41,390 nucleotides of DNA from Candidatus Methanocorpusculum faecipullorum. Lineage in GTDB: Archaea > Halobacteriota > Methanomicrobia > Methanomicrobiales > Methanocorpusculaceae. The translations under genes were made by a program, and so were the position numbers. The notes under the pieces were generated by a model. That model saw nothing but the letters and a program-made list of their open reading frames with translations, was not told the DNA's origin and made no database searches. Location: the NCBI GenBank assembly GCA_018883755.1, contig JAHLFR010000040.1, positions 1 through 41,390 on the forward strand, in the 5' to 3' direction. Positions 1,136-35,386 of the stretch are shown here, piece by piece (positions within the stretch are counted from its first letter, which is position 1; every line of letters starts with the position of its first letter).

Positions 1136-4100
1136 TTAGAGACTGACAGGTATGATCTTCTCCTCATCCTCCGGGAAGTAGAGATAGCCCTCCGGCCTTT
1201 TCCCAAACAGCTGTTCCACTCCCGCAAGATAGGTGAGAAGCTCGTTGCGGTAGCCTTCCATACGATCGCCGCAGTTTTCCTTGTGACCGGACTTGAAATC
1301 AACAACAACGATCCTGTCCTCATGGACAAGAATCCGGTCAACCCGGCCCCGCACCCAAGTATCGCCCAGCGGGAACTGGAGGGAAAGCTCGGCATAATCC
1401 TCTTTGCATCCCTGATAGAGCGGGGAGGAGAAAAACTCCTCCCGCATTGCAGCAAAGCTTGCTGCATCCTCTAAAGATATCCCGTACCTTTCACAGGCAC
1501 GATTTGGTGACAGACCGGCAAAAACCGCATGAAGAGCAGATCCCCGTATCATAGCCTCCTCACTGCCGGGAGCTGAGGAGGTCTGCATGGAAGGACGGAT
1601 GTACGGGACATCGCTTTTCGTATCCTCACAAAAAACGGTTGGCGTATCGACCCAGTTCTCTAACACATCCTCCGCCGTGTCCCGGGACTCTGCCTCAGGG
1701 ATCGCAGGGATCCGGCATTCACAGGCCCCGCAGGATCGGAGAATGTCTTTGTCAAGAAGAGATAAGAAGGAGTTTTTACTTGCTGAACCGTCCTGGTTCA
1801 TGTAGGTTCCCGAGATGATGAGATGATCTCTTGCTCGGGTAAGGGCAACGTAGAGTTTTCGTTTGATCTCCATCTTTTCTGCGGTGATCTCATCCGGCTT
1901 CAGGTAGTTTTGGACAAATGTTTTGACAGAGACATCTTTGGCGTCAGACTTTCGCACCTGAAGGGAAAACGCAGGACCAAGCTGTTCATCAAAGATCCAG
2001 CTGTCAAGTTCGTCACGTTTCCCATCCCCAGTAAAGGCTGCAATGACGACTGGGTACTCCAGGCCTTTGGCTGCATGAATCGTAAGAATCTGGACACGGT
2101 TTCCAGGAGTCACGTCTCCCTCATCCTCGTTGATCTTCTTATTCAGAATGTTCTCCCGAAGCTGCATTGCTGCATGTATCAGGGAGTCGGTACCTTCCAG
2201 AAGAGAGATGAGTTTCTCCAGATTGACAATAATGAGATCCCCTCCCTGCATGGCGGCATAGGTGGTAAGGATGCCGGACTCTCTGAGAACAGTTCGCAAA
2301 AACCTTCCAATGGGCTGTTGAAGTGAGAGTTTTTGCCAGTGCCGGATGGTCTGCACAACGGACTCAGCCAGAGGACTGTCACGGACATCCTTCCATAAGG
2401 AGAAACGACCGGTCCGCAGACGGCAGAGATCGGCATCGCTGATCCCAAACCAGGGTGACCGGAGAAGACCATACAATGCTGCATCATTTTCCGGATTGAT
2501 GATAACCTCAAGAAGGTTGGAAAAGTCATATGTCTCCTGCTGCTGATAGAGCATGCCGCTTTTGTAGATCAGATACGGTACCGAGAACTTTTGCAGGGCT
2601 GCGGTGAGCTGGGGGAGCGGTGTTCGGGTGTTAAGGAGAACGGCAATGTCACCGTACTCTGCGGGACGGCTTACACCGTCTTTTGTCTTGATGAGGAGGG
2701 TCTGGTTACGGACGGATCCGGCAATCCAGGCTGCAATGTCTTCGCTTTCCCGCATACGGGCGGTGCTTGTGTCCTCCCCCTGTTCTTTTTTCCTGCAAAG
2801 GAGCTGGACAGAACCCGTGTCCTGGGTACGGTTTGCAGATAGAGCATCATACGAGACATCATAGGATCGTGCAGCACCGGTGAAGACCTGGGAGAATACC
2901 GTGTTAACGAGATGAACGATCTCCGGAACCGTCCGGAAACTTACATCAAGACTAACACGGGATGTCGCGGGGAATGCATCAAAGAGTGCGGAATTTTTCC
3001 GGATGTCGGCTCCGCGGAACCGGTAGATGGACTGCTTGAGATCGCCGACGATGAAAAGGCGGTCGGATGCAGCCGGAGAACCGGCAAGACGGAGGATCAG
3101 ATCCGTGAGACGGGGATCATTGTCCTGTACTTCATCAACAAGGATGTATCGGTATCGTTCCCAAAGCTCGCTTAGGACTGCAGGATTCTCGGTGATGAGC
3201 CGGACTGCCCGGTAGATAAGATCGTCAAAATCAAGAAGGTTCAACCGCTGTTTTTCTGCATCAATGCTCTTCGCAGCAGCCCTGAGCACCCGTCCAAAGG
3301 AGATGAGAACCAAACTGATCTCATCAAACGGAGGTTTTCCAGGATCCAGATCCATATTCAGAATCTCATTGATTGGGTCTTTGAAGATCGTCTCATCAAT
3401 TCCGGTAAGACAGATATTACCTTTGTTGGCACCTTTCAAACCCCGCAGAGCTGCAAGAATCTCCGCGGTACTTTCGGCGGCCTTGAGTTTTTGCCAGTTT
3501 TCCGTGACGGTTTCACCGTATTTGGTCTCCCCGACAACCGCGGAGATCTCACCGATTGTCTGACATATTTCCTGATTTTGAACAAGATTATCCCGGACTA
3601 ACACCAAGAAATCTGCACTAGTTGTCTCCCAGAGTTCCCGGACGGCATCAGGGTTCTCCTCCAGCTGCTGGAACCAGGGTTCCGCTTTCCGCCAGTCATC
3701 CAATGCATATGCAAGGAGAGAACTGAGAGTATCGCTCTTCAGATACTGCAGAAGACAGAGAACGTCCTGCCGGAGATCCTCTGGCGGATGAGTGAGAAGA
3801 GCAGTTACTGTTGTATGAACAAGATCCGATTGTGATCCTGCATCCATGATACCAAACGACGGATCAAGACCTGCTTCGACGGCAAATTCCCTGAGAATGG
3901 AGGATGCAAAACTGTGGAAGGTGGTGACGGATGCACGGTAGAACTCATCCTGCATCCGCAAAAGGCCCTGCTGCACAGTTGGATCACTGCACGCACGGAT
4001 ATCTTCCGAAAGATCGGCTGCGATGCGTTCCCGCATCTCGGCTGCGGCTTTCTCGGTAAAGGTAAGAGCAAGAATATTTGCCGGACTAAATTGTTTATTT

Positions 4101-4237
4101 GCATGATTCTGCAAAAGAACAGAACGATAGCGCTGGCTAAGAATGAAGGTCTTGCCGGTACCTGCTCCGGCAGTGACACAAGTACTTTTGGTAACATCAA
4201 GTGCCCGTTTCTGAGAAGGGGTAAGTGTTTCGGGCAT
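1136..4237 (-). CDS. AddA-like UvrD/Rep-family helicase-nuclease
   Basis: Large superfamily 1A helicase fused to a RecB-type nuclease, about 1033 residues, resembling AddA of the bacterial AddAB double-strand-break resection complex. Helicase motifs occur in order: Q motif LTPSQKRALD, Walker A TAGAGTGKT (23-30), motif Ia LTFTEKAAAEM, motif II VDEVQD (368-372), motif III GDLKQSIYRFRGAD, motif IV SFRT, motif V TIHAAKGLEYP and motif VI YVALTRARD. The C-terminus carries RGSALHAVF, GRVDRI and VVDFKSG (D980, K982), the PD-(D/E)XK nuclease core. The start is taken at the ATG at 4235-4237, seven bases after GGAGGTG; a GTG at 4238-4240 is the alternative. It overlaps the stop of the upstream AddB-like gene, so the two are translationally coupled. 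Archaea normally use HerA-NurA with Mre11-Rad50, so transfer from bacteria is likely (inference). Confidence 0.9.
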   Translation of the reverse strand: MPETLTPSQKRALDVTKSTCVTAGAGTGKTFILSQRYRSVLLQNHANKQFSPANILALTFTEKAAAEMRERIAADLSEDIRACSDPTVQQGLLRMQDEFYRASVTTFHSFASSILREFAVEAGLDPSFGIMDAGSQSDLVHTTVTALLTHPPEDLRQDVLCLLQYLKSDTLSSLLAYALDDWRKAEPWFQQLEENPDAVRELWETTSADFLVLVRDNLVQNQEICQTIGEISAVVGETKYGETVTENWQKLKAAESTAEILAALRGLKGANKGNICLTGIDETIFKDPINEILNMDLDPGKPPFDEISLVLISFGRVLRAAAKSIDAEKQRLNLLDFDDLIYRAVRLITENPAVLSELWERYRYILVDEVQDNDPRLTDLILRLAGSPAASDRLFIVGDLKQSIYRFRGADIRKNSALFDAFPATSRVSLDVSFRTVPEIVHLVNTVFSQVFTGAARSYDVSYDALSANRTQDTGSVQLLCRKKEQGEDTSTARMRESEDIAAWIAGSVRNQTLLIKTKDGVSRPAEYGDIAVLLNTRTPLPQLTAALQKFSVPYLIYKSGMLYQQQETYDFSNLLEVIINPENDAALYGLLRSPWFGISDADLCRLRTGRFSLWKDVRDSPLAESVVQTIRHWQKLSLQQPIGRFLRTVLRESGILTTYAAMQGGDLIIVNLEKLISLLEGTDSLIHAAMQLRENILNKKINEDEGDVTPGNRVQILTIHAAKGLEYPVVIAAFTGDGKRDELDSWIFDEQLGPAFSLQVRKSDAKDVSVKTFVQNYLKPDEITAEKMEIKRKLYVALTRARDHLIISGTYMNQDGSASKNSFLSLLDKDILRSCGACECRIPAIPEAESRDTAEDVLENWVDTPTVFCEDTKSDVPYIRPSMQTSSAPGSEEAMIRGSALHAVFAGLSPNRACERYGISLEDAASFAAMREEFFSSPLYQGCKEDYAELSLQFPLGDTWVRGRVDRILVHEDRIVVVDFKSGHKENCGDRMEGYRNELLTYLAGVEQLFGKRPEGYLYFPEDEEKIIPVSL

Positions 4238-7179
4238 CACTCCTCACCTCCCGTAGTTACGCGGCAGACAAATCGCCATGGACAGTATGAACAGTCAGAA
4301 CTGTTCGGATTTGGAGAACAAACGCCGTTCTGCATCCCGGACCGGTAGGATTTGCAGTAGGAGAGGATATCCGGGAGGTGCTTGTAAAGTACATCTTTCG
4401 AAAACCTCTGCAGTTTTACTCCGCGTGGATGGATCTGATAAAATGCGGCAGCACCGGATACACCGGAATCCTCCGCCTCAACCGCAGCAACGTAGAGCGG
4501 AAGCTGAAGCGAGATGCCAGCTTCGAGGCCCTTGACATTGTACTTCGCTGTGCTGATGTCACCTGATTTGTAGTCATAGACGGTGAAGCTGTTGTCCGGG
4601 AAAAAATCGATGCGGTCAGGCCGTCCTGAAATACGCAGAGGGGCGGCATCCGGCACAGATACTGCAGTGGTGTCTGCAAGAGGTTGTTCAAGACGGCGGA
4701 ATGCGGCCGGTTGGTGAATAAGTTTCGGATCTAGTTCCGTATCTATTACGCCAAAGAGCCGGCGGGTGAGGTAGAGATTCTTTTCAGCCTCCCACTCAGG
4801 ACTGGTAAAGCCAGGACGATCAAACTCCTCGGCTGCGATCTCTGTAAGGCATAGCTTTGCATCTTCTTTATTTTCCAGGGTGATCGGATCTGTCCATTCA
4901 GTAAAGAACCGTTCCATGATTCGATGAAGAACAAGACCAAGCATGCTTCTTTCCTCCGAGTGAGAAGACACTGGCGGGATGAGACGGAGGTGTTTTTCGA
5001 GGTACCATTTAAACGGACAGGAGGCATAGGTCTCAAGCATGGTAGGAGCAAAAGTGGTCTGATCATTGTAGGCAGAAGAAAACTGTTCGGCAAGGTCAGG
5101 AAGATCACCAAAACAAACCTGCAAGGTCTCCTGTTTCCGCGGAGGATACGGGGGAAGACCAAACAGATCGGGATGGTCAGCGATGGTATTATTCAAAACA
5201 GCAAGCCCTGCTGTCATCTGATTATCAGTTTGGGAATGGGAAAGGAAATCTGGTGCTTGGGTTTTGTACTGTTCCGGGAACCGGGTAAAAAATGAGGAAG
5301 GGCTAAGGGCCCCGGAGGAGTCGCGTTCAGCACAGGAGAGATGCAGGCTCTCTCCAGCTACAAGGCAGGCTGCGGCAAAGTAGTACTTTTCACGGAGGAT
5401 ATCGGTTTCAAAGGAGGTATTTTTGATTTTTGCAGTCTCTTTGACGGTCAGATACGGAAGAGTAAATTGAATGCGAGGGATGAACTTGTCGGAAAGACCG
5501 AGAATAAAGACGTGATTTGCAGAGGTGAGGGCCGACTCTCTGAGTCCGGTAACGGTGATGGTGTGTTTAGCGGTACGAGGAGAGAGCGGGGCAGGAGTGC
5601 TGCTGCACAGTTCGGAAAGTGTGTCACAGAACTCGGCATGAGTGAGACTGATGGTTTGTGCAACCGGCGATGCAGCAAGACCCGAGATGAGATCATGGAA
5701 CGCTTTCTGCCTGAGCTGCTGTTCTGTTGGCATCTCACACTCAACAGGCTCAAGCAGACCAAGCTTAATAAAAAGATCAAGACAGTCTCTACAGTGCTGC
5801 CTAACAGACTGTTTTTTCTGATTTTTTGGAGTGATTTCCTCAATAAGACTGATAAGACCCTGTTGGAGTTTCTGAAGTTCATCTATCTGTACCTGATAGA
5901 ATTTGGCAGACTGACTGTCCGTACCTGCGTCCTCGATCTTTTGGAGAAGGAACGGAATCCGTTGGTCAGCAATAGTGATCCAGTTGGATTTTCCGCGAGT
6001 GATACCGAGCGTCTGTGAAAGAGAGAACAGTTGTGATGTGTGGATGCCAAACTTTTTCCGGATCTGCGGAAGCGTAAGGAGCTGGAGAAGAGTGGCCAGG
6101 GGATAGTCCGCTACAGGGGCTTTGAGAACTGCGAGAAGTGCTGCCGTTTCCGGATAGTTACTAATCGGCCGTGCGGTTGCAGCGGTGTACGAGATGCGTG
6201 TTCTGGTACCGTCTGGATTCCGGATACTAAAGTCATCAATGATATCATCGATCAGCCGGACAGTCTCCTTTACGGCTGGGCTGAGGATGAGGATATCCTC
6301 TGCACCGACACCATCCTCAAAAAGACCGGATACCTGATCAAGAACCGAGGAAACTTCTGCAGTGGTGTCCGGATAGATGACTGTGGTAAGATTGACCGGA
6401 AGAGATGCAGGAATACGGTGTTCGTGTCCAGCAAACAATCCTTCAGCAAACGCAGCCTTCTCTGGGTCACCGTGAATTGGTTCTCCAGTAAATCCCGGGA
6501 AAATAGCATGGTTATTCACTGCGGGACGCACTTCATGCACACTCTCAGCTGTAGCAATAATAGCGTTGATGAAAGCTTGTTCGTTGGGCTGCAGGGAGTA
6601 CATCCCGTAGATAAAGACCGTCCTGAAAGGAATTTTTCCTGAACCAAGGGCAACCACGGCAGTTTCGTAGACAGTCTCTTTATCTGCAAGATGTTCTTCC
6701 TTTAGTATTCTGGTGTATTCTTGGTGGATTGCAGAGAGTGTTTCTATCTTTCGGGTTGAAGAGTGAATAACAGAGAGATCGGTCAGATTTTGCTCAAGAC
6801 CGGTGATGAGTGTCCGGAGACTGCTGCAAGTGGTGTGGGTGACCTCGCCAAAAAGAGAGGCGGTACTTTTGCGAAGATCAGGGCTTGTGAGTATTCTGCG
6901 GATGAGAAGGTCCTGTTCTCCAGAGCTAAGAATGTAGAGATCCGGATCTGTTTCGCGACAGATGTACTGGGCAAAATCTCTTGCGGTAAGCATGTGATCC
7001 GGGAGGATCAGTCGTTCTTTGGCTATTGGATGGCGGAGGATCACATCAGCAAGATTCCGCGTGGGAAGCACAAACCATGTACCGAACGGGTCACGGGATG
7101 CAGCGTCCTGATAGGCAGCAAAGGTTTCAGTAAGAAGCTCTCCAAAAAGAGCATAACGGATAGTGTGTGATACAGACAT
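4237..7179 (-). CDS. AddB-like PD-(D/E)XK nuclease with iron-sulfur staple
   Basis: About 980 residues, the likely partner of the AddA-like protein that overlaps its stop. The C-terminal nuclease shows LGLVLHRIMERFF, then SGRPDRIDFF, VYDYKSG (D and K of the active site) and LQLPLYVAAVE. It is bracketed by cysteines at 721 (SCPFKWYLE) and 963, 966 and 972 (CSYCPWRFVC). This one-plus-three spacing is that of the [4Fe-4S] staple of AddB nucleases. The N-terminal half looks like a degenerate helicase. Where active AddB proteins have a Walker A motif this one reads FVLPTRNLADVILR, with no GxGKT, so ATP binding by this subunit is doubtful. A similar layout occurs in other AddB-like or RexB-like proteins, so the exact subfamily is open. 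No clear ribosome site precedes the ATG at 7177-7179. Confidence 0.85.
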   Translation of the reverse strand: MSVSHTIRYALFGELLTETFAAYQDAASRDPFGTWFVLPTRNLADVILRHPIAKERLILPDHMLTARDFAQYICRETDPDLYILSSGEQDLLIRRILTSPDLRKSTASLFGEVTHTTCSSLRTLITGLEQNLTDLSVIHSSTRKIETLSAIHQEYTRILKEEHLADKETVYETAVVALGSGKIPFRTVFIYGMYSLQPNEQAFINAIIATAESVHEVRPAVNNHAIFPGFTGEPIHGDPEKAAFAEGLFAGHEHRIPASLPVNLTTVIYPDTTAEVSSVLDQVSGLFEDGVGAEDILILSPAVKETVRLIDDIIDDFSIRNPDGTRTRISYTAATARPISNYPETAALLAVLKAPVADYPLATLLQLLTLPQIRKKFGIHTSQLFSLSQTLGITRGKSNWITIADQRIPFLLQKIEDAGTDSQSAKFYQVQIDELQKLQQGLISLIEEITPKNQKKQSVRQHCRDCLDLFIKLGLLEPVECEMPTEQQLRQKAFHDLISGLAASPVAQTISLTHAEFCDTLSELCSSTPAPLSPRTAKHTITVTGLRESALTSANHVFILGLSDKFIPRIQFTLPYLTVKETAKIKNTSFETDILREKYYFAAACLVAGESLHLSCAERDSSGALSPSSFFTRFPEQYKTQAPDFLSHSQTDNQMTAGLAVLNNTIADHPDLFGLPPYPPRKQETLQVCFGDLPDLAEQFSSAYNDQTTFAPTMLETYASCPFKWYLEKHLRLIPPVSSHSEERSMLGLVLHRIMERFFTEWTDPITLENKEDAKLCLTEIAAEEFDRPGFTSPEWEAEKNLYLTRRLFGVIDTELDPKLIHQPAAFRRLEQPLADTTAVSVPDAAPLRISGRPDRIDFFPDNSFTVYDYKSGDISTAKYNVKGLEAGISLQLPLYVAAVEAEDSGVSGAAAFYQIHPRGVKLQRFSKDVLYKHLPDILSYCKSYRSGMQNGVCSPNPNSSDCSYCPWRFVCRVTTGGEE

Positions 7180-24846: not shown

Positions 24847-25503
24847 ATGAATACCGTTGAAGCTGTATCTGTTCTTACCGAGTTGAATCGTATCTATCCG
24901 CATACGAGAGAGGACATGAACTTCCTCAAGTTCGAAAATCCCTATCAGATTCTGATCATGACGATTTTGTCAGCACAGACCACTGACGCTACCATCAACG
25001 GTCTGCGGGACGAACTGTTTTCCTGCTATCCGGACCCTCAGACACTCGCCGCAGCCGAGCAGACAGAGGTTGAACGGATCATTCATCCCGCCGGATTCTA
25101 TCACACCAAAGCAAAAAACATCATCGGTACAGCAAAATGCCTCTGCGAAAACTTCGGCGGAGAAGTCCCGCAGACCATTGACGAACTTGTCACGCTGCCG
25201 GGGGTTGGACGTAAGACCGCAAACATTGTGACAAATCATGCGTTCGGCAACCCGGTCGGCATTGCAGTTGATACCCATGTGGGACGTCTGTCACAGCGTA
25301 TCGGATTTTCCGACAACAGCGATCCGAACAAAATCGAACAGGATTTAATGAAACTGTTTCCCAAGACATGGTGGGGAGAACTCAACTATCTCTTAATCAG
25401 CCACGGACGAGCGGTATGTACCGCAAAAAAACCCGCATGTGAACGGTGTGCCATATCTCACCTCTGCAGGTGGCACGGGAAAATGCAGACAAAACAGTCG
25501 TAA
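24847..25503 (+). CDS. nth: Endonuclease III (DNA glycosylase/AP lyase)
   Basis: Removes oxidised pyrimidines and nicks abasic sites in base excision repair. The 218-residue protein, the usual length, has the helix-hairpin-helix LPGVGRKTANIV with the catalytic lysine K123, the catalytic aspartate D142 in VDTHVGRL, and a C-terminal [4Fe-4S] loop C191-x6-C198-x2-C201-x5-C207. All key residues are intact. The ATG at 24847 has no ribosome site and follows the tRNA-Pro end by seven bases. The messenger is therefore probably made from the tRNA promoter and freed by tRNA 3' processing as a leaderless or near-leaderless transcript. The MFS gene follows after five bases. Confidence 0.97.
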   Translation: MNTVEAVSVLTELNRIYPHTREDMNFLKFENPYQILIMTILSAQTTDATINGLRDELFSCYPDPQTLAAAEQTEVERIIHPAGFYHTKAKNIIGTAKCLCENFGGEVPQTIDELVTLPGVGRKTANIVTNHAFGNPVGIAVDTHVGRLSQRIGFSDNSDPNKIEQDLMKLFPKTWWGELNYLLISHGRAVCTAKKPACERCAISHLCRWHGKMQTKQS

Positions 25504-26967: not shown

Positions 26968-27480
26968 ATGAAGATTCTTTTCGCAATAGCTCCGGACCGG
27001 TTCTTAGATCAGGAATATACCATACCCAAAGCAGCTTTCGAAGAGAAAGGAATTGAGTGCGTAACAGCCTCCACCATCCGCGGAACGTGCTATGGCATGC
27101 ATGGTGAGATTGTTGAGTCCGATCTCTCCTTTGATGAGGTCAACCCCGCTGATTACGACGGCATTATCATCGTGGGCGGCATTGGCTGTCAGGATTACCT
27201 CTGGAGATCAGAGAAACTCATTGACATTACCAATGCCATGGGTACTGCCGGAAAAATAACCGCAGGCATCTGCCTTGCACCGGTCGTCATCGCCGAGGCC
27301 GGACTTCTTGCAGGAAAGAACGCAACCACGCTTGACACGCCTGCATCACGCCGTGTAATGGAACTCGACAAAGCAGTACTCGTTAATGAACCGGTGGTCG
27401 TCTCCGGAAACATCATCACCGCACGCATGCCGCAGGACGCCAAAGCCTTCGCCGATACCATCCTTCAACACCTCGCCTGA
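26968..27480 (+). CDS. DJ-1/PfpI family protein
   Basis: A 170-residue member of the DJ-1/PfpI/Hsp31 class I glutamine-amidotransferase-like superfamily. The nucleophile elbow reads AGICLAPVV with C102, and E16 (in DQEYTIP) is at the position that pairs with that cysteine in DJ-1. The strand IIIVGGIGCQDYLW and the C-terminal VVSGNIITARMP, with AKAFADTIL, complete the fold. Family members act as deglycases, chaperones or peptidases, and the archaeal activity is not settled. The ATG has no clear ribosome site and is probably near-leaderless. It ends four bases before the TPR-winged-helix gene, so an operon is likely. Confidence 0.92.
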   Translation: MKILFAIAPDRFLDQEYTIPKAAFEEKGIECVTASTIRGTCYGMHGEIVESDLSFDEVNPADYDGIIIVGGIGCQDYLWRSEKLIDITNAMGTAGKITAGICLAPVVIAEAGLLAGKNATTLDTPASRRVMELDKAVLVNEPVVVSGNIITARMPQDAKAFADTILQHLA

Positions 27481-27484
27481 CACA

Positions 27485-29335
27485 ATGACAAACGAATCTT
27501 CCCCAACCACTCCCACACTTGATGAGGCGATGCAGCTCTTTAACGCCGGACAGTTCACCGACGTTATCAGCCTCGTCTCCGGTACCAGCGATCCCGCTCT
27601 CCTTCTTCTCGCTGCCCGGAGTTATGCAGAAACCGGTCAGTACGATACCGCAGGATACCTTCTCCGGGATCTCATACAAGTAATGCCGGGATCATCGTAC
27701 CTGCACAGCTATCTTGCCGACGTCATGGAAAAAACCGGCGATGAGCACGCTGTATCCGAGTATGCAGCCGCACTGATTCTCGACCCGGAGAACCGGCCTG
27801 CTCTCAGGAGCTATGCCCGTCTGCTTCTTGACAAAAATGATCTCCGCGGTGCAATACCCTCACTGCGAACTTTGGTGCGGTTCGGTTCTGACTCTGCCGA
27901 CATCCGCAAACTCATGCATATTTTAACCGAGGTTGGTGAGCCGGAGGAGGCTATTGCCCTGCATGCCCAGAACTTCAGCGAGGATGAGTACTCACCGGAG
28001 TATGTGGAGGCGCTGCTCGCTGCAAAGGAGTATCAGAAAGCAATGAGTGTGTCCCTTCGCGGCTGGAACACTGTTCGTGAGCTGGTCTATCTCCGGCTTG
28101 ACCTTGAAGCCCTTGCAGCTCTTGACCCCGAAGCAGCCGAGAGTGCATACCGTTCAGCTCTTGACAGCTTTGAGGAGGAGGAGATGGACAATGAGGAGGT
28201 TGCCCAGATACGCTTCTCGTTTGTTCTTCTCGAAAAACTGCTCGGTCATTACGATGCAGCACGCTATGAGCTTGGGCTGCTTCTCAACACCCGTACAGAT
28301 CCTGTGTACCGGCTGCTGGAAGCAGAGCTTGCCGCCCGTACAGATCATGGAGAGGAGGCAAACTGTATTTACCGGCAGCTGATCGCAGAAGAGTGCAGCA
28401 AGGATCCGGAGATTGCCGATCCTGCGATGCAGGAGCTGATCATCACGCGGTTCAAGGCATTCCTTGACTCTGTCCGCAGCAAAGAAGAAGTCGCAGGAAT
28501 TATCAGCGTTCTTCTTTCTTCGTATCCGACAGCGGTCTGTTTAACCCAGATTGGGGCTGCATATGAAGAGGCTCAGGCCTGCAGACAGGCACGTGACTGG
28601 TATTACCGGGCATACCGTGCTGACTACATTCACGGCGGTATTGCGTATGCTGCGTTCCTGAAACGTATCGGCGAAGATCGCGAGTGCGAGACAGTCATCC
28701 GTTATATCCTAACCAACATCACCCGTGCATCTGATGTTGAGCTGGTTGCAGAGGAGGTGTTCAACGGTAAAGAAGCAATGTACCGCATTCCAAAGATCAT
28801 GGAGCAGGTGCTTGCCCGCCTTACCTCGGCTTTAGAGAAACTCTCCTCAAACGGAAGAGAAATGCTTGCCATTGGTCTGCTCTATGCCGCGGGAGATGCC
28901 CTGGAGCGGCAGGATTACGAGGAGTGCAAGTGGCACTGTCTGCTCGGTCTCGATGTGATGCCCTGTTATCCGGCAGTCATTAAGGTGGAGGACTTCATGC
29001 AGCTGCTTGCCCAGGCAAAAGGCCGGGCACTCGCCGAACGCCCCGTACTTCTTGAGAAGAATGCCTGGCTGGAGACCGCGACCGAAGCGAGTGCCGAGGA
29101 GCCAACGCCAGTTGCTAATCTGCTTGATCTTGATGAACGTGAACAGCAGGTGGTTGCATTCCTCAAAGAGCACCGCGAAGCAACCGAGATGGATCTCCGC
29201 TCCGTACTCAACACCAGACGGGTAACTGGTATTGTAAACGGTATTTTAACCAAAGCCGCAGAGAAAGGCGTAAAGATCATTGAAAAGCGGGGAGTCGGGA
29301 ACCGCGGAGAGATTTATGGTTACACCGGAGAGTAA
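27485..29335 (+). CDS. TPR protein with C-terminal winged-helix domain
   Basis: A 616-residue soluble protein. Residues about 12-530 form helical TPR-like repeats, for example LLLLAARSYAETGQYDTAGYL, LHSYLADVMEKTGDEHAVSEY and AALRSYARLLL-type units. The last 75 residues (EREQQVVAFLKEHREATEMD, then LRSVLNTRRVTGIVNGILTKAAEKG and KIIEKRGVGNRGEIYGYTGE) look like a winged-helix DNA-binding domain. The start is ATG 27485, four bases after the DJ-1 stop; a reading from 27386 overlaps that gene and is rejected. Its last 20 bases overlap the BrxD-like ATPase gene, giving tight translational coupling. That suggests the two proteins form a complex in which this one supplies DNA binding and a scaffold (inference). 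The precise family is not recognised. Confidence 0.85.
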   Translation: MTNESSPTTPTLDEAMQLFNAGQFTDVISLVSGTSDPALLLLAARSYAETGQYDTAGYLLRDLIQVMPGSSYLHSYLADVMEKTGDEHAVSEYAAALILDPENRPALRSYARLLLDKNDLRGAIPSLRTLVRFGSDSADIRKLMHILTEVGEPEEAIALHAQNFSEDEYSPEYVEALLAAKEYQKAMSVSLRGWNTVRELVYLRLDLEALAALDPEAAESAYRSALDSFEEEEMDNEEVAQIRFSFVLLEKLLGHYDAARYELGLLLNTRTDPVYRLLEAELAARTDHGEEANCIYRQLIAEECSKDPEIADPAMQELIITRFKAFLDSVRSKEEVAGIISVLLSSYPTAVCLTQIGAAYEEAQACRQARDWYYRAYRADYIHGGIAYAAFLKRIGEDRECETVIRYILTNITRASDVELVAEEVFNGKEAMYRIPKIMEQVLARLTSALEKLSSNGREMLAIGLLYAAGDALERQDYEECKWHCLLGLDVMPCYPAVIKVEDFMQLLAQAKGRALAERPVLLEKNAWLETATEASAEEPTPVANLLDLDEREQQVVAFLKEHREATEMDLRSVLNTRRVTGIVNGILTKAAEKGVKIIEKRGVGNRGEIYGYTGE

Positions 29336-30620
29336 CGGAGCCGGGCGGAATGAACGCCAGCTGGAAAGTGTTGCGATCATCAATGCCCTGCGCCGCGGAA
29401 CCGTTCCGGAGTCAGGCCTTGGAAGACTTGCAGTCGGACTGGAGACCGAGGAGAAAGTCATCACCTCGCAGCTGGCATTCGTTGGAACCGGTCATGCCGA
29501 CTGTAAGTTTATCCGCGGCGAGTACGGCTCAGGCAAGACATTTCTCATCTCGCGGGCACTGGAGATCGGTCTTGGCGCGAAGTTTGTAACAAGTCATGTG
29601 GTTATCTCGCCGGATACGCCGCTTCACAAGCTCCAGGCGGTGTATGCAAGAATCTGTGCCGGTCTTACCACGCAAACGGAGGATCATGCCCTCAAAAGCA
29701 TCATCGATACCTGGATCTACGGTATCGAAGACCGGCTGATCAGTACCGGCATCGACGAGAACGATGCAGCACTGGCAGATATGACTGCAAAGGAGATCGA
29801 AGCGGTTCTCACCAGGGTTAGCGGAATAAACTCGGGTCTTGCAGCAGCGCTTCGTACCTACTACAAAGCGAACAACAGCGGTGACTTTGCCACAGCACAG
29901 GCAGCAATCGGCTGGATTTCCGGAGAACAGACCGTGGGAAGATCCTTTAAAGCCCAGGCAGGACTGAAAGGAACGGTCACGGAAGGAGATGCCCTTGCAT
30001 TCCTGAACGGTCTGGTGCATATTATAGTGCAGGCCGGATATGCGGGGCTGCTTGTCAGTTTCGATGAGGTGGAGACTGCTCAGGCATTTGCCAGACCGCA
30101 ACGGGAGAAGGGATACATCAATCTCCGTCAGATCGTGGATATGATCGACCGAAATGAGCTGCCGAACTGTTTCTTCCTGTTTGCCGGAACGCCCGCACTC
30201 TTTGACAGTGCAAAAGGTATTCGATCACTTCCTCCTCTGTATGATCGAATAGGAATGATTGCCGATGACGGATTCTCCAATCCCATGCAGACACAGATTG
30301 TTCTTCCGAAGTTTGACGTGAAAAAACTTGAAGAGGTTTCTCTGCGGGTGATTGACATCTACACCGAAGCATACTCCGAGGTTGACAAAACGCGTGTCTC
30401 CATCCGGTTTATCCGCACAATGATCGATCGGGTAACAGGAAGATTTGGCGGCCGCGTGGATGTGGTGCCGCGCTTGTACCTGCGGGAGTTTGTGGATGTG
30501 TTGGACAAATGTGCACTGTATGACTCCTATAATCCGATGGAGAAGTATGCATTTGTTGCAAAAGAGAACGACACCTCGTTAAAAGAGGAGGAAAAAGCTG
30601 TCATGGAAGTCAGCTGGTGA
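29316..30620 (+). CDS. BrxD-like (DUF2791/BREX-type) P-loop ATPase
   Basis: A 434-residue AAA-like ATPase of the DUF2791 P-loop family, which includes BrxC/BrxD of BREX phage-defence systems. Walker A is GEYGSGKT (68-75), preceded by the family-typical RLAVGLE and CKFIRGEYGSGKT. Walker B is LLVSFDEVE (245-253), and a sensor-1 strand follows in CFFLFAGTPALFD (285-297). The C-terminal part (RFGGRVDVVPRLYLREFVDVLD) matches the end of this family. The ATG at 29316 has GGAGAG upstream and overlaps the TPR-winged-helix gene by 20 bases. No BREX methyltransferase (BrxX/PglX), alkaline-phosphatase-like BrxZ/PglZ, BrxL or helicase is nearby, so this is an orphan or belongs to a different system. Confidence 0.87.
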   Translation: MVTPESNGAGRNERQLESVAIINALRRGTVPESGLGRLAVGLETEEKVITSQLAFVGTGHADCKFIRGEYGSGKTFLISRALEIGLGAKFVTSHVVISPDTPLHKLQAVYARICAGLTTQTEDHALKSIIDTWIYGIEDRLISTGIDENDAALADMTAKEIEAVLTRVSGINSGLAAALRTYYKANNSGDFATAQAAIGWISGEQTVGRSFKAQAGLKGTVTEGDALAFLNGLVHIIVQAGYAGLLVSFDEVETAQAFARPQREKGYINLRQIVDMIDRNELPNCFFLFAGTPALFDSAKGIRSLPPLYDRIGMIADDGFSNPMQTQIVLPKFDVKKLEEVSLRVIDIYTEAYSEVDKTRVSIRFIRTMIDRVTGRFGGRVDVVPRLYLREFVDVLDKCALYDSYNPMEKYAFVAKENDTSLKEEEKAVMEVSW

Positions 30621-30676
30621 GAGATTCCTACAATCCTTTATTTTTTCACTGCCTATAAGTATCCACGGAAGTATCC

Positions 30677-31618
30677 ATGGATAAAAATCTCTATGTAAAA
30701 GATATTACGAACGGATCAGACGTATCGTCTCTTTTCCTCATCAAACGTTCAGATCTCCGCAGTAAACGCGGTGAACAGTTTGTTCACATGACTCTTGCAG
30801 ATCGTACCGGAACAATTGAGTGCAAAGCCTACGGCAATAAAGCAGTGGAGGCTGCACGGGCGGTGAAGACCGGAATGGTGTATGCAATATCAGGTGTCGG
30901 CAAGATCAATCAGAACGGAGAGCTGCATGTCTTTTCGGACTCTCCAGAGACGCTGGATTCACTTCTTGCAGGACCTGTTACCGTGATGCCAGGGCAAGAG
31001 ACCGAGTTCCTGTTCACGCCTGCGGATATCAAAGGGAATGCAGCTGAGATTCAGAAAGTTGTTGCAAGCATTGGAAACAATGATCTCAGGCTGTTTGTTG
31101 CCTGTTGTCTGGATCACCGGTTTTATGAATGCCCGGCAGCAATCCGCCGTCACCATGAATACCTCGGCGGCCTTTGTGAACACTCCCTTGAAACGGTACG
31201 AATAGCGCTGAATCTTGTGGAGACAATGCCCAGAACCGAGATCAACCGTGACATGGTGATTGCCGGTGCGGTGTTGCATGATATTGGAAAGATCTTCTGC
31301 TTTGACAAAGTCGGTTACGGCTATGTGCCCAACGATACCTACAACCTTATCGAGCATATTACGATGGGAATTATGTTTATTGATGAGTACAAGAGTCTCA
31401 TCTCCGAGTCACAGCTTTTACAGCTCCGCCATATTATCCAGTCACATCACGGAATCTACGGTGATGTTGTGCCCCTGACTGCTGAGGCGTGGCTGGTGAA
31501 TCAGGCAGACGGAGCGAGTTCGATGCTCCGCAGCATTGTGGATGATCTGGCAGAGACACCAAAGGGTCAGAAGAAGAAGGGTCTCCGGAGCGAGAAGTTC
31601 CTCTGGAAGGCTGTCTGA
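30677..31618 (+). CDS. YhaM-like OB-fold/HD-domain 3'-5' exonuclease
   Basis: A 313-residue protein with an N-terminal OB-fold (about 1-95: LRSKRGEQFVHMTLADRTGT, IECKAYGN) and a C-terminal HD hydrolase domain. The HD metal ligands are visible as H169 in CEHSLETV, H201-D202 in GAVLHDIGKI, H257-H258 in IQSHHG and D278 in NQADGASS. This is the architecture of YhaM, a manganese-dependent 3'-5' exoribonuclease that can also degrade single-stranded DNA. The ATG has GGAAG six bases upstream and TATA-like elements at 30634-30660. It lies 56 bases after the BrxD-like gene on the same strand. It may be a functional partner of that gene or an independent RNA-decay enzyme. Confidence 0.9.
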   Translation: MDKNLYVKDITNGSDVSSLFLIKRSDLRSKRGEQFVHMTLADRTGTIECKAYGNKAVEAARAVKTGMVYAISGVGKINQNGELHVFSDSPETLDSLLAGPVTVMPGQETEFLFTPADIKGNAAEIQKVVASIGNNDLRLFVACCLDHRFYECPAAIRRHHEYLGGLCEHSLETVRIALNLVETMPRTEINRDMVIAGAVLHDIGKIFCFDKVGYGYVPNDTYNLIEHITMGIMFIDEYKSLISESQLLQLRHIIQSHHGIYGDVVPLTAEAWLVNQADGASSMLRSIVDDLAETPKGQKKKGLRSEKFLWKAV

Positions 31619-34516: not shown

Positions 34517-35386
34517 ATGTCCCCACGCCTCGTCTCCGAGTTCCGCAGCCGGTTTGCCGCGTCCGGTATGACTGAGGATCTCATCCGCGATTTTCAGAAC
34601 GAAGTGATGGAGTTCTATGAGACCAAAGGACGGCACGATATGGAGTGGAGGCTGCGGTTCGATCCCTATCGCATCGTTGTCTCGGAAGTGATGCTCCAGC
34701 AAACGCAGGTACCACGGGTAGCGGTGATGTATCCGGTCTTTATCGAAAAATTTCCGGATTTTGCCTCACTTGCCGCAGCACCACAGGCGGAACTCCTTGC
34801 AGCCTGGCAGGGAATGGGATACAACCGGCGTGCACTGAATCTTCAGAAACTTGCCGTCCGTGTTCAAGAGGAGTTCGGAGGAATTCTTCCGGAAGATCCA
34901 AAAACCCTTGCAACACTGCCGGGAATCGGCCCTGCTACCTCCTGTTCAATCGCAGCCTTCGCCTTCAACCGGCCGGTGGTATTCATCGAGACCAACATTC
35001 GACGCGTCTTCATTCACTATTTCTTCTCAGACACCGCAGTAGTGGACGACCGTGATCTTTTCCCGCTGGTTGAGGCCTGCCTTTTGCCGGGAAGAACCCG
35101 CGAATGGTACTGGGCACTGATGGATCTCGGAACCGCACTCAAAACCTCTGTCCCCAACCCAAACCGCCGGAGCAGGCAGTATGTAAAGCAGTCCACGTTT
35201 GACGGATCAGACAGGCAGATTCGCGGAGCACTGCTCCGTCTGCTGTTAAACGGGGATGCAGAGGATGCAGAAACACTTGCAAAAGCGGCAGGGGCATCCC
35301 ACGACAGGGTTTCCAGGATACTGGAAGAGATGTGCCGCGAAGGATTTTTTGTACAGGAAGAGGGCGGTGCCTACCGGATACGGTAA
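34517..35386 (+). CDS. MutY-like HhH-GPD DNA glycosylase lacking the iron-sulfur loop
   Basis: A 289-residue member of the MutY/Nth superfamily. MutY hallmarks are SEVMLQQTQVPRV (E57, the MutY catalytic Glu), LAAWQGMGYNRRALNL and the helix-hairpin-helix LPGIGPAT (134-141). Two features are unusual. The position of the catalytic Asp after the hairpin reads FIETNIRRVF, that is Glu158 instead of Asp. The cysteines of the C-terminal [4Fe-4S] loop are absent, replaced by LMDLGTALKTSVPNPNRRSR. Residues about 233-289 look like a winged helix (LLRLLLNGDAEDAETLAKAA, then DRVSRILEEMCREGFF), not the Nudix-like 8-oxoG reader. Substrate A:8-oxoG is therefore only a guess. ATG 34517 is used; ATG 34568 is possible. 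Confidence 0.88.
   Translation: MSPRLVSEFRSRFAASGMTEDLIRDFQNEVMEFYETKGRHDMEWRLRFDPYRIVVSEVMLQQTQVPRVAVMYPVFIEKFPDFASLAAAPQAELLAAWQGMGYNRRALNLQKLAVRVQEEFGGILPEDPKTLATLPGIGPATSCSIAAFAFNRPVVFIETNIRRVFIHYFFSDTAVVDDRDLFPLVEACLLPGRTREWYWALMDLGTALKTSVPNPNRRSRQYVKQSTFDGSDRQIRGALLRLLLNGDAEDAETLAKAAGASHDRVSRILEEMCREGFFVQEEGGAYRIR

Follow-up and report, generated by a model that had tools for sequence, protein, structure and literature searches.

A BrxD-type ATPase gene coupled to a TPR-winged-helix gene in three families of Methanomicrobiales, with a BrxHI-like helicase encoded elsewhere in the genome

BREX type 2 and Shango are the closest described systems to the locus analysed here, a pair of overlapping genes for a tetratricopeptide-repeat (TPR) protein with a winged-helix tail and a BrxD-type ATPase in Candidatus Methanocorpusculum faecipullorum. 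The pair lies in a stretch of 41,390 nucleotides (the window; contig JAHLFR010000040.1, positions 1 to 41,390, forward strand, of assembly GCA_018883755.1), and the genome, G000 in our sample, is about 80% complete. In the eight plasmid BREX loci used for comparison, BrxD is immediately followed by a BrxHI-type helicase; five of these loci have an annotated PglZ, one has an alkaline-phosphatase-domain protein instead, and two are unannotated and were labelled BREX by us. BREX type 2 was reported as absent from archaea in the accessible part of PMC12839542, and no term starting with 'TPR' or 'Methano' occurs in the main text of that paper. Shango consists of a TerB protein (SngA), an ATPase (SngB) and a helicase (SngC), and according to the accessible part of PMC10250203 this set lowers phage plating. 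No paper on BrxD/DUF2791 with a TPR protein, or on such a set in Methanocorpusculum, was found in the open-access literature, and the accessible sections of PMC10609329 contain nothing on a TPR-ATPase pair.

The ATPase of the window is one half of a BrxD-BrxHI dyad, the genes of which are separated in the genome, and its upstream partner is the TPR protein. As in the BREX type 2 dyad, the ATPase exceeds the BrxD cut-off, and ATPase and helicase each fall in a clade with BREX dyads. However, in the genomes that carry the pair (hereafter carriers) the two genes are unlinked, PglZ was not found in most of those tested, and the upstream partner is of the TPR-winged-helix type; three of these genomes (G000, G014 and G016) have no BrxC. 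The combination of an upstream partner, a PF10923 ATPase and an Lhr-like helicase is shared with Shango, but SngB and SngC belong to separate clades, the neighbour of the ATPase is the TPR-winged-helix protein rather than a TerB-domain SngA, and no homology between SngA and the TPR protein was detectable with hhalign.

The ATPase and its TPR-winged-helix partner

The layout given in the original prediction, a TPR-winged-helix gene that overlaps by 20 bases a BrxD-like ATPase gene with intact Walker A and B motifs, was confirmed from the open reading frames and the alignment (Table 1); the longest ATPase frame opens earlier, at a TTG codon (29280). The ATPase matched PF10923 (BrxC_BrxD) in Pfam with an E value of 1.8e-125 and scored 395.2 bits against the NCBIfam model BREX_BrxD (NF033438; cut-off 350). 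With the PADLOC models, it reached 401 bits for BrxD and 144 bits for SngB. Residues G68, G71, G73, K74, T75, D250 and E251 were invariant in 16 aligned orthologues. In a tree of 40 proteins, the 14 carrier ATPases formed one clade that was joined with the BrxD proteins of the BREX loci (support 99/97). The BrxD-side clade also takes in one Deinococcus protein, and the ten Shango-type ATPases fall apart from it, one of the ten so marked (L129) having an upstream protein that does not cluster with SngA. A search of named records returned 11 loci with 73–95% identity, mostly from Methanocorpusculum and with M. petauri first, in a scan that reaches close relatives only. The ATPase had no match in phages, where the TPR protein was not searched for, and the TPR-winged-helix protein had none in plasmids.

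The best structural alignment of the ATPase model was with ORC, with which it shares the ORC/Cdc6-type fold and the Walker motifs, at 15% identity. The likeness to a loader, as proposed in the original prediction, is thus supported at the level of the model, which resembles ORC-type loaders. In ORC, the winged helix sits in the same chain, whereas in the carriers it is found on the partner protein. Sequence searches of solved structures yielded no helpful hit for the ATPase, and the hits for its partner were TPR proteins of a generic kind.

The TPR assignment is based on a single Pfam match (TPR_19, E 1.6e-7) and on the structure model (mean predicted confidence, pLDDT, of 87), in which helix pairs extend over residues 10–517, followed by a linker (519–542) with pLDDT below 50 and by a winged helix at about residues 551–613. 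This tail may bind DNA. Foldseek matches of the model include Ski3 and the TPR proteins of the Paf1 complex, among many TPR superhelices; a functional reading of these two matches was dropped, since so many other superhelices match too. The hhalign comparisons also revealed no homology of the TPR protein to the upstream partners of Shango (c22) or of other ATPase loci (c35 and c75).

Distribution of the pair and the unlinked helicase

The main scan comprised 392 genomes of the phylum (threshold E 1e-10; families coded f1–f6 and f12). An ATPase match at this threshold or better was obtained in 73 genomes, 55 of which scored 583–823 bits, the next best value being 246 bits. The TPR-winged-helix protein was found at 308–982 bits in exactly these 55 genomes and at this threshold in no other; five carriers gave an additional generic TPR match of 42–56 bits. 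Comparison of the coordinates of both scans placed the TPR gene directly upstream of the ATPase, on the same strand, in 55/55 carriers, and no linked BREX genes were present in the neighbourhoods examined, so that the adjacency proposed originally is maintained across genomes. Measured from the stop codon of the TPR gene, the first ATPase-like codon lay at −35 to +22 bases among 55 retrieved regions, a set that differs from but overlaps the 55 carriers; G015 and G001, two of these regions with broken or truncated frames, were left aside. All carriers belong to three Methanomicrobiales families, f1, f4 and f6. In f2, f3 and f5, the ATPase is missing from at least 23 of the genomes sampled, three of them having distant matches only; counted for ATPase, TPR protein and BrxHI-like helicase together, the sampled Methanomicrobiales genomes without all three are likewise at least 23. 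In a scan of the order, 138 of the 232 genomes had the ATPase, with one match each; the listed carriers were all from f1, f4 or f6, not all non-matching genomes are listed, and the ATPase is not claimed for every f6 genome. Four f1 genomes had no ATPase match in that scan (G005, G015, G021 and G024; 71–78% complete). In G005, neither the ATPase nor the helicase of this set was found, and G015 has the ATPase in broken frames.

In G015 (Candidatus Methanorbis basalitermitum; L052 and L267), interruptions affect the frames of the ATPase, the TPR protein, the OB-HD protein and aLhr1, but not DJ-1 or several further genes. These interruptions correspond either to assembly noise or to genome decay; coordinated decay of the set was rejected as unspecific, since the aLhr1 frame is broken as well.

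Of the 18 carriers tested for PglZ, 14 gave none, G000 included; two of the other four had clear PglZ proteins and two had marginal matches. Only one PF10923 match was present in G000 and in the one-contig, 98%-complete G014 and G016, leaving no candidate for BrxC. The other PF10923 ATPases of the phylum lie between an upstream partner and a helicase (one member per gene cluster scanned), the partners being either TerB (SngA) with an SngC/BrxHI-type helicase, which corresponds to Shango, or the unnamed c35 and c75 with a helicase. Given that these loci carry an adjoining helicase and the pair does not, the genomes were searched for an unlinked helicase.

With the PADLOC BrxHI model, a match of some kind at E 1e-20 was obtained in all 41 relatives. 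Scores of 459–550 bits, in proteins of about 700–780 residues, were obtained in 23/25 f1, 3/3 f4 and 3/3 f6 genomes, and the scores in ten f2, f3 and f5 genomes peaked at 367 bits, mostly in proteins of about 900–930 residues, the size of aLhr1. The two f1 exceptions are incomplete assemblies: G005, with a Shango-linked helicase only, and G015, with a broken frame. In G000, the helicase is located on contig C22 (645 residues, truncated at the contig start). A profile of 13 helicases then run against the 392 genomes gave 495–1227 bits in exactly the 55 carriers, followed by three f12 dyads at 460 bits, the remaining matches being below 380. The description of the ATPase as an orphan was therefore wrong. 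The statement that BrxX, BrxZ, BrxL and helicases are lacking holds for the annotated neighbourhood but not, as regards the helicase, for the genome; BrxL, BrxX and PglW were not searched for.

In the 55 carriers, the helicase locus and the pair either occupy different contigs or are separated by tens of kb to more than 1 Mb (the closest distance seen, about 18 kb, is in G002, outside this sample), and BrxHI is thus not beside BrxD as it is in BREX type 2. The helicase was picked out by motif in 36 of 40 regions, with thioredoxin, an amidotransferase-domain protein, pterin dehydratase and SepF as recurrent neighbours. Motifs II (D155, E156, H158), III (S191-A192-T193) and VI (Q332, R333, R336, R339) were invariant in 13 aligned sequences, and Walker A was nearly invariant up to the lysine, one of the 13 rows being truncated at its start. 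In a tree of 43 proteins rooted on aLhr1, the carrier helicases joined the BrxHI proteins of the BREX loci, apart from Shango (Shimodaira–Hasegawa-like approximate likelihood-ratio test, SH-aLRT, 91). The SF2 core and Lhr winged helix are shared with aLhr1 and aLhr2, but the unlinked helicase is shorter than aLhr1 (about 710 aa vs open frames of 904–1016 aa) and scores far higher with the BrxHI model. The accessible part of PMC8301817 reports aLhr2 as absent from Methanomicrobiales.

Three further observations concern helicases. In f1 loci L146, L147, L157, L195, L196 and L214, the helicase has a DNA methylase gene a few genes away at most, on the other strand; the single methylase scanned matched N6_N4_Mtase. 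The f12 loci L125–L127 (G065, G074 and G082) encode a 258-aa protein without Pfam match, then a BrxD-like ATPase and a BrxHI-like helicase, possibly another variant of the same engine. Loci L051, L140, L141 and L142 combine a short helicase of about 530–550 aa with one or two divergent PF10923-like ATPases and with a protein of 280–309 aa, the one scanned example of which lacked a Pfam match.

Rate covariation was assessed in 16 genomes with residual distances after removal of RpoB and 2000 permutations. The correlation between ATPase and helicase was 0.65, a value reached in 0/2000 permutations and unchanged when aLhr1 was also removed, and the controls were 0.24 (ATPase-aLhr1) and 0.23 (helicase-aLhr1). 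Further controls with CTP synthase and HisD gave 0.25–0.55 (sets of 11 and 14 genomes). With all 18 genomes, the trio reached 0.81–0.92 and the aLhr1 controls 0.71–0.75, raised by the fast-evolving G174 and G400, and we therefore rely on the 16-genome figures. Rate evidence ties the ATPase to the helicase, and adjacency ties the ATPase to the TPR protein.

Neighbouring genes

The gene downstream of the pair encodes, as predicted, an OB-HD protein on the same strand with intact HD ligands (HD E 4.6e-10 and OB E 5.2e-7 in Pfam; the HD residues are invariant in nine relatives). The label 'YhaM-like nuclease' was borne out for the order of its domains, OB then HD, as in the 3'-5' exoribonuclease YhaM, but the score of 77.8 bits with the YhaM equivalog model is far under the cut-off of 460. 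A DJ-1/PfpI gene lies upstream on the same strand in 35/55 regions, within 300 bases in 21, its membership of the set being unproven. CTP synthase, GMP synthase, a thioesterase and histidinol dehydrogenase are frequent around the pair in f6, f4 and f1g14. Ten f6 regions instead have, as the gene next downstream of the ATPase, one for a c17 protein of about 175 aa (L044:10404-10934 and relatives); the c17 protein that was scanned had no Pfam match.

In the window, the region is flanked by an endonuclease III-like gene and by another gene that BLAST relates to it; among the regions retrieved, both were found around the pair only in G004. The window also contains overlapping genes for a UvrD-type helicase and a PD-(D/E)XK nuclease protein, which we take to resemble an AddAB/RecBC-type pair. 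Homologues of this pair adjoin Shango loci in G032 (L031) and G371 (L130).

Table 1. Positions of the genes and protein features in the window
Feature	Coordinates	Strand	Remarks
UvrD-type helicase and PD-(D/E)XK nuclease protein	1136..7179	−	1034 aa and 980 aa; genes overlap
Endonuclease III-like gene	24847..25503		flanks the region
DJ-1/PfpI protein	26968..27480	+	PF01965, E 3.9e-37; ends 4 bases before the TPR gene
TPR-winged-helix protein	27485..29335	+	616 aa; ATG start; last coordinate is the end of the stop codon; from ORF list, TPR_19, model and pairing with the ATPase
Helical-repeat (TPR) superhelix	27512..29035	+	residues 10–517
Winged-helix tail	29135..29323	+	residues ~551–613; model and conserved stretch in 16 orthologues
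BrxD-type ORC-like AAA+ ATPase	29316..30620	+	434 aa; ATG start; last coordinate is the end of the stop codon; ORF list
Overlap of TPR and ATPase genes	29316..29335	+	20 bases
Walker A of the ATPase	29517..29540	+	GEYGSGKT, residues 68–75
Walker B acidic pair of the ATPase	30063..30068	+	D250-E251
OB-HD protein	30677..31618	+	YhaM-like architecture; neighbour outside the set
Second gene, BLAST-related to the endonuclease III-like gene	34517..35386		flanks the region

Proposed working, alternatives and meaning

Most likely, the ORC-like ATPase would load or activate the helicase, with the TPR protein as an adaptor. The winged-helix tail would recognise DNA and the superhelix would hold partner proteins; the ORC/Cdc6-like ATPase would assemble with ATP on the TPR-winged-helix protein, in a physical complex, and would then load or switch on the Lhr/Ski2-type helicase, which in turn would unwind or remodel DNA or DNA-RNA structures. 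The reading of the pair as the BrxD half of a dyad as in BREX loci, single-copy in three families and with this loader-type working, has in our view about an even chance of being correct. Its role would be in genome maintenance or standing surveillance, not in BREX immunity, and the data hint at resident machinery for DNA processing rather than at an island acquired for defence against viruses.

Several points weigh against this proposal. In the RNA polymerase tree (1353 columns, 30 genomes), the lacking families f2, f3 and f5 formed one clade (87/86), so the co-distribution corresponds phylogenetically to one or two evolutionary events, not 55, and many unrelated genes could share the carrier pattern. 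The single-marker RpoB tree, unlike the 1353-column tree, set f5 beside the carriers, and the carriers as one side of a branch were not rejected by the approximately unbiased (AU) test in either tree (p-AU 0.20 with RpoB, 0.48 with 1353 columns); for this reason, no claim of multiple independent losses is made. Two incomplete f1 genomes, G021 and G024, show a helicase but no ATPase. The helicase tree was obtained by a quick method and its SH-aLRT of 91 is below the star mark, while Foldseek alone gave no PDB match for the ATPase model at E 0.001 or better. The residual distances of the TPR protein correlated with those of the other two at 0.27–0.39 (16 genomes), the two pairs giving 0.31 and 0.39, which is the level of the TPR-aLhr1 control (0.37), so the test is uninformative for the TPR protein. 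Finally, a role in defence would be compatible with ordinary neighbours.

The three proteins might constitute a standing, non-mobile antiviral system that recognises and attacks foreign DNA and is inherited vertically like core genes. Both the ATPase and the helicase have their nearest relatives among BREX parts and the related Shango set reduces phage plating (PMC10250203, accessible part), but the pair has no nuclease, methylase or PglZ gene as a constant neighbour, most of the carriers tested appear to have no PglZ, and the genes are single-copy with ordinary neighbours; we consider an antiviral system fairly unlikely. Single-chain STAND regulators combine TPR and helix-turn-helix parts, and the pair could similarly be a two-piece transcription regulator, in which the TPR-winged-helix protein binds promoters, the ATPase is a signal switch and the helicase is unrelated. 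The tight coupling of a winged-helix protein to an ATPase would fit, as would TPR-helicase covariation at control level only. However, the grouping of the ATPase with BrxD, the alignment of its model, best with ORC, and the ATPase-helicase covariation above control make such a regulator quite improbable.

A functionless remnant of a decaying BREX locus would explain BREX-type genes mostly without PglZ. Its probability is already negligible, given that all three genes are retained in the same 55 genomes from several genera, without internal stops in the listed matches, and that motifs are intact in 16 ATPases and 13 helicases (for Walker A, apart from one truncated row). The three-gene module of the original prediction, with the OB-HD nuclease as its third part, would account for an OB-HD gene within 300 bases downstream in 19/55 regions and for its presence in 10/10 f1 and f4 carriers among 30 chosen genomes. 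However, the OB-HD gene was absent from 8/8 f6 carriers and present in 6/10 same-order non-carriers (0/2 outgroups), and within the genus it is sometimes 0.4–2.5 kb off or not found in the region retrieved. Its distribution rules it out as a member of the set, and a three-gene module, contradicted for the order, is very improbable. What stands of that prediction is the adjacency without linked BREX genes and the ORC-like ATPase model, and not the OB-HD membership or the orphan status.

The sequence trees support a common origin of the carriers' ATPase and helicase with the BREX dyad, and recruitment in either direction would fit. Gene-neighbourhood surveys alone miss such split dyads, and caution is also needed with the NCBI BrxD model, the cut-off of which is passed in G000, where searches gave no PglZ and no BrxC. 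The roles of BrxD and BrxHI in BREX are described as uncharacterised in the accessible part of PMC12839542. A lineage with both proteins, mostly without PglZ and with a constant partner, provides a minimal system for studying whether BrxHI is loaded by BrxD. More tentatively, and with some doubt on our part, the set may be a core Methanomicrobiales machine, in which the TPR-winged-helix adaptor recruits the ORC-like ATPase to load the Ski2/Lhr-type helicase for genome maintenance, with an engine shared with BREX and Shango. If so, the ATPase-helicase engine would be a general module, the upstream partner (PglZ, a TerB protein or a TPR-winged-helix protein) would set immunity versus housekeeping, and the carrier lineage would show a domesticated, or ancestral, form of this engine.
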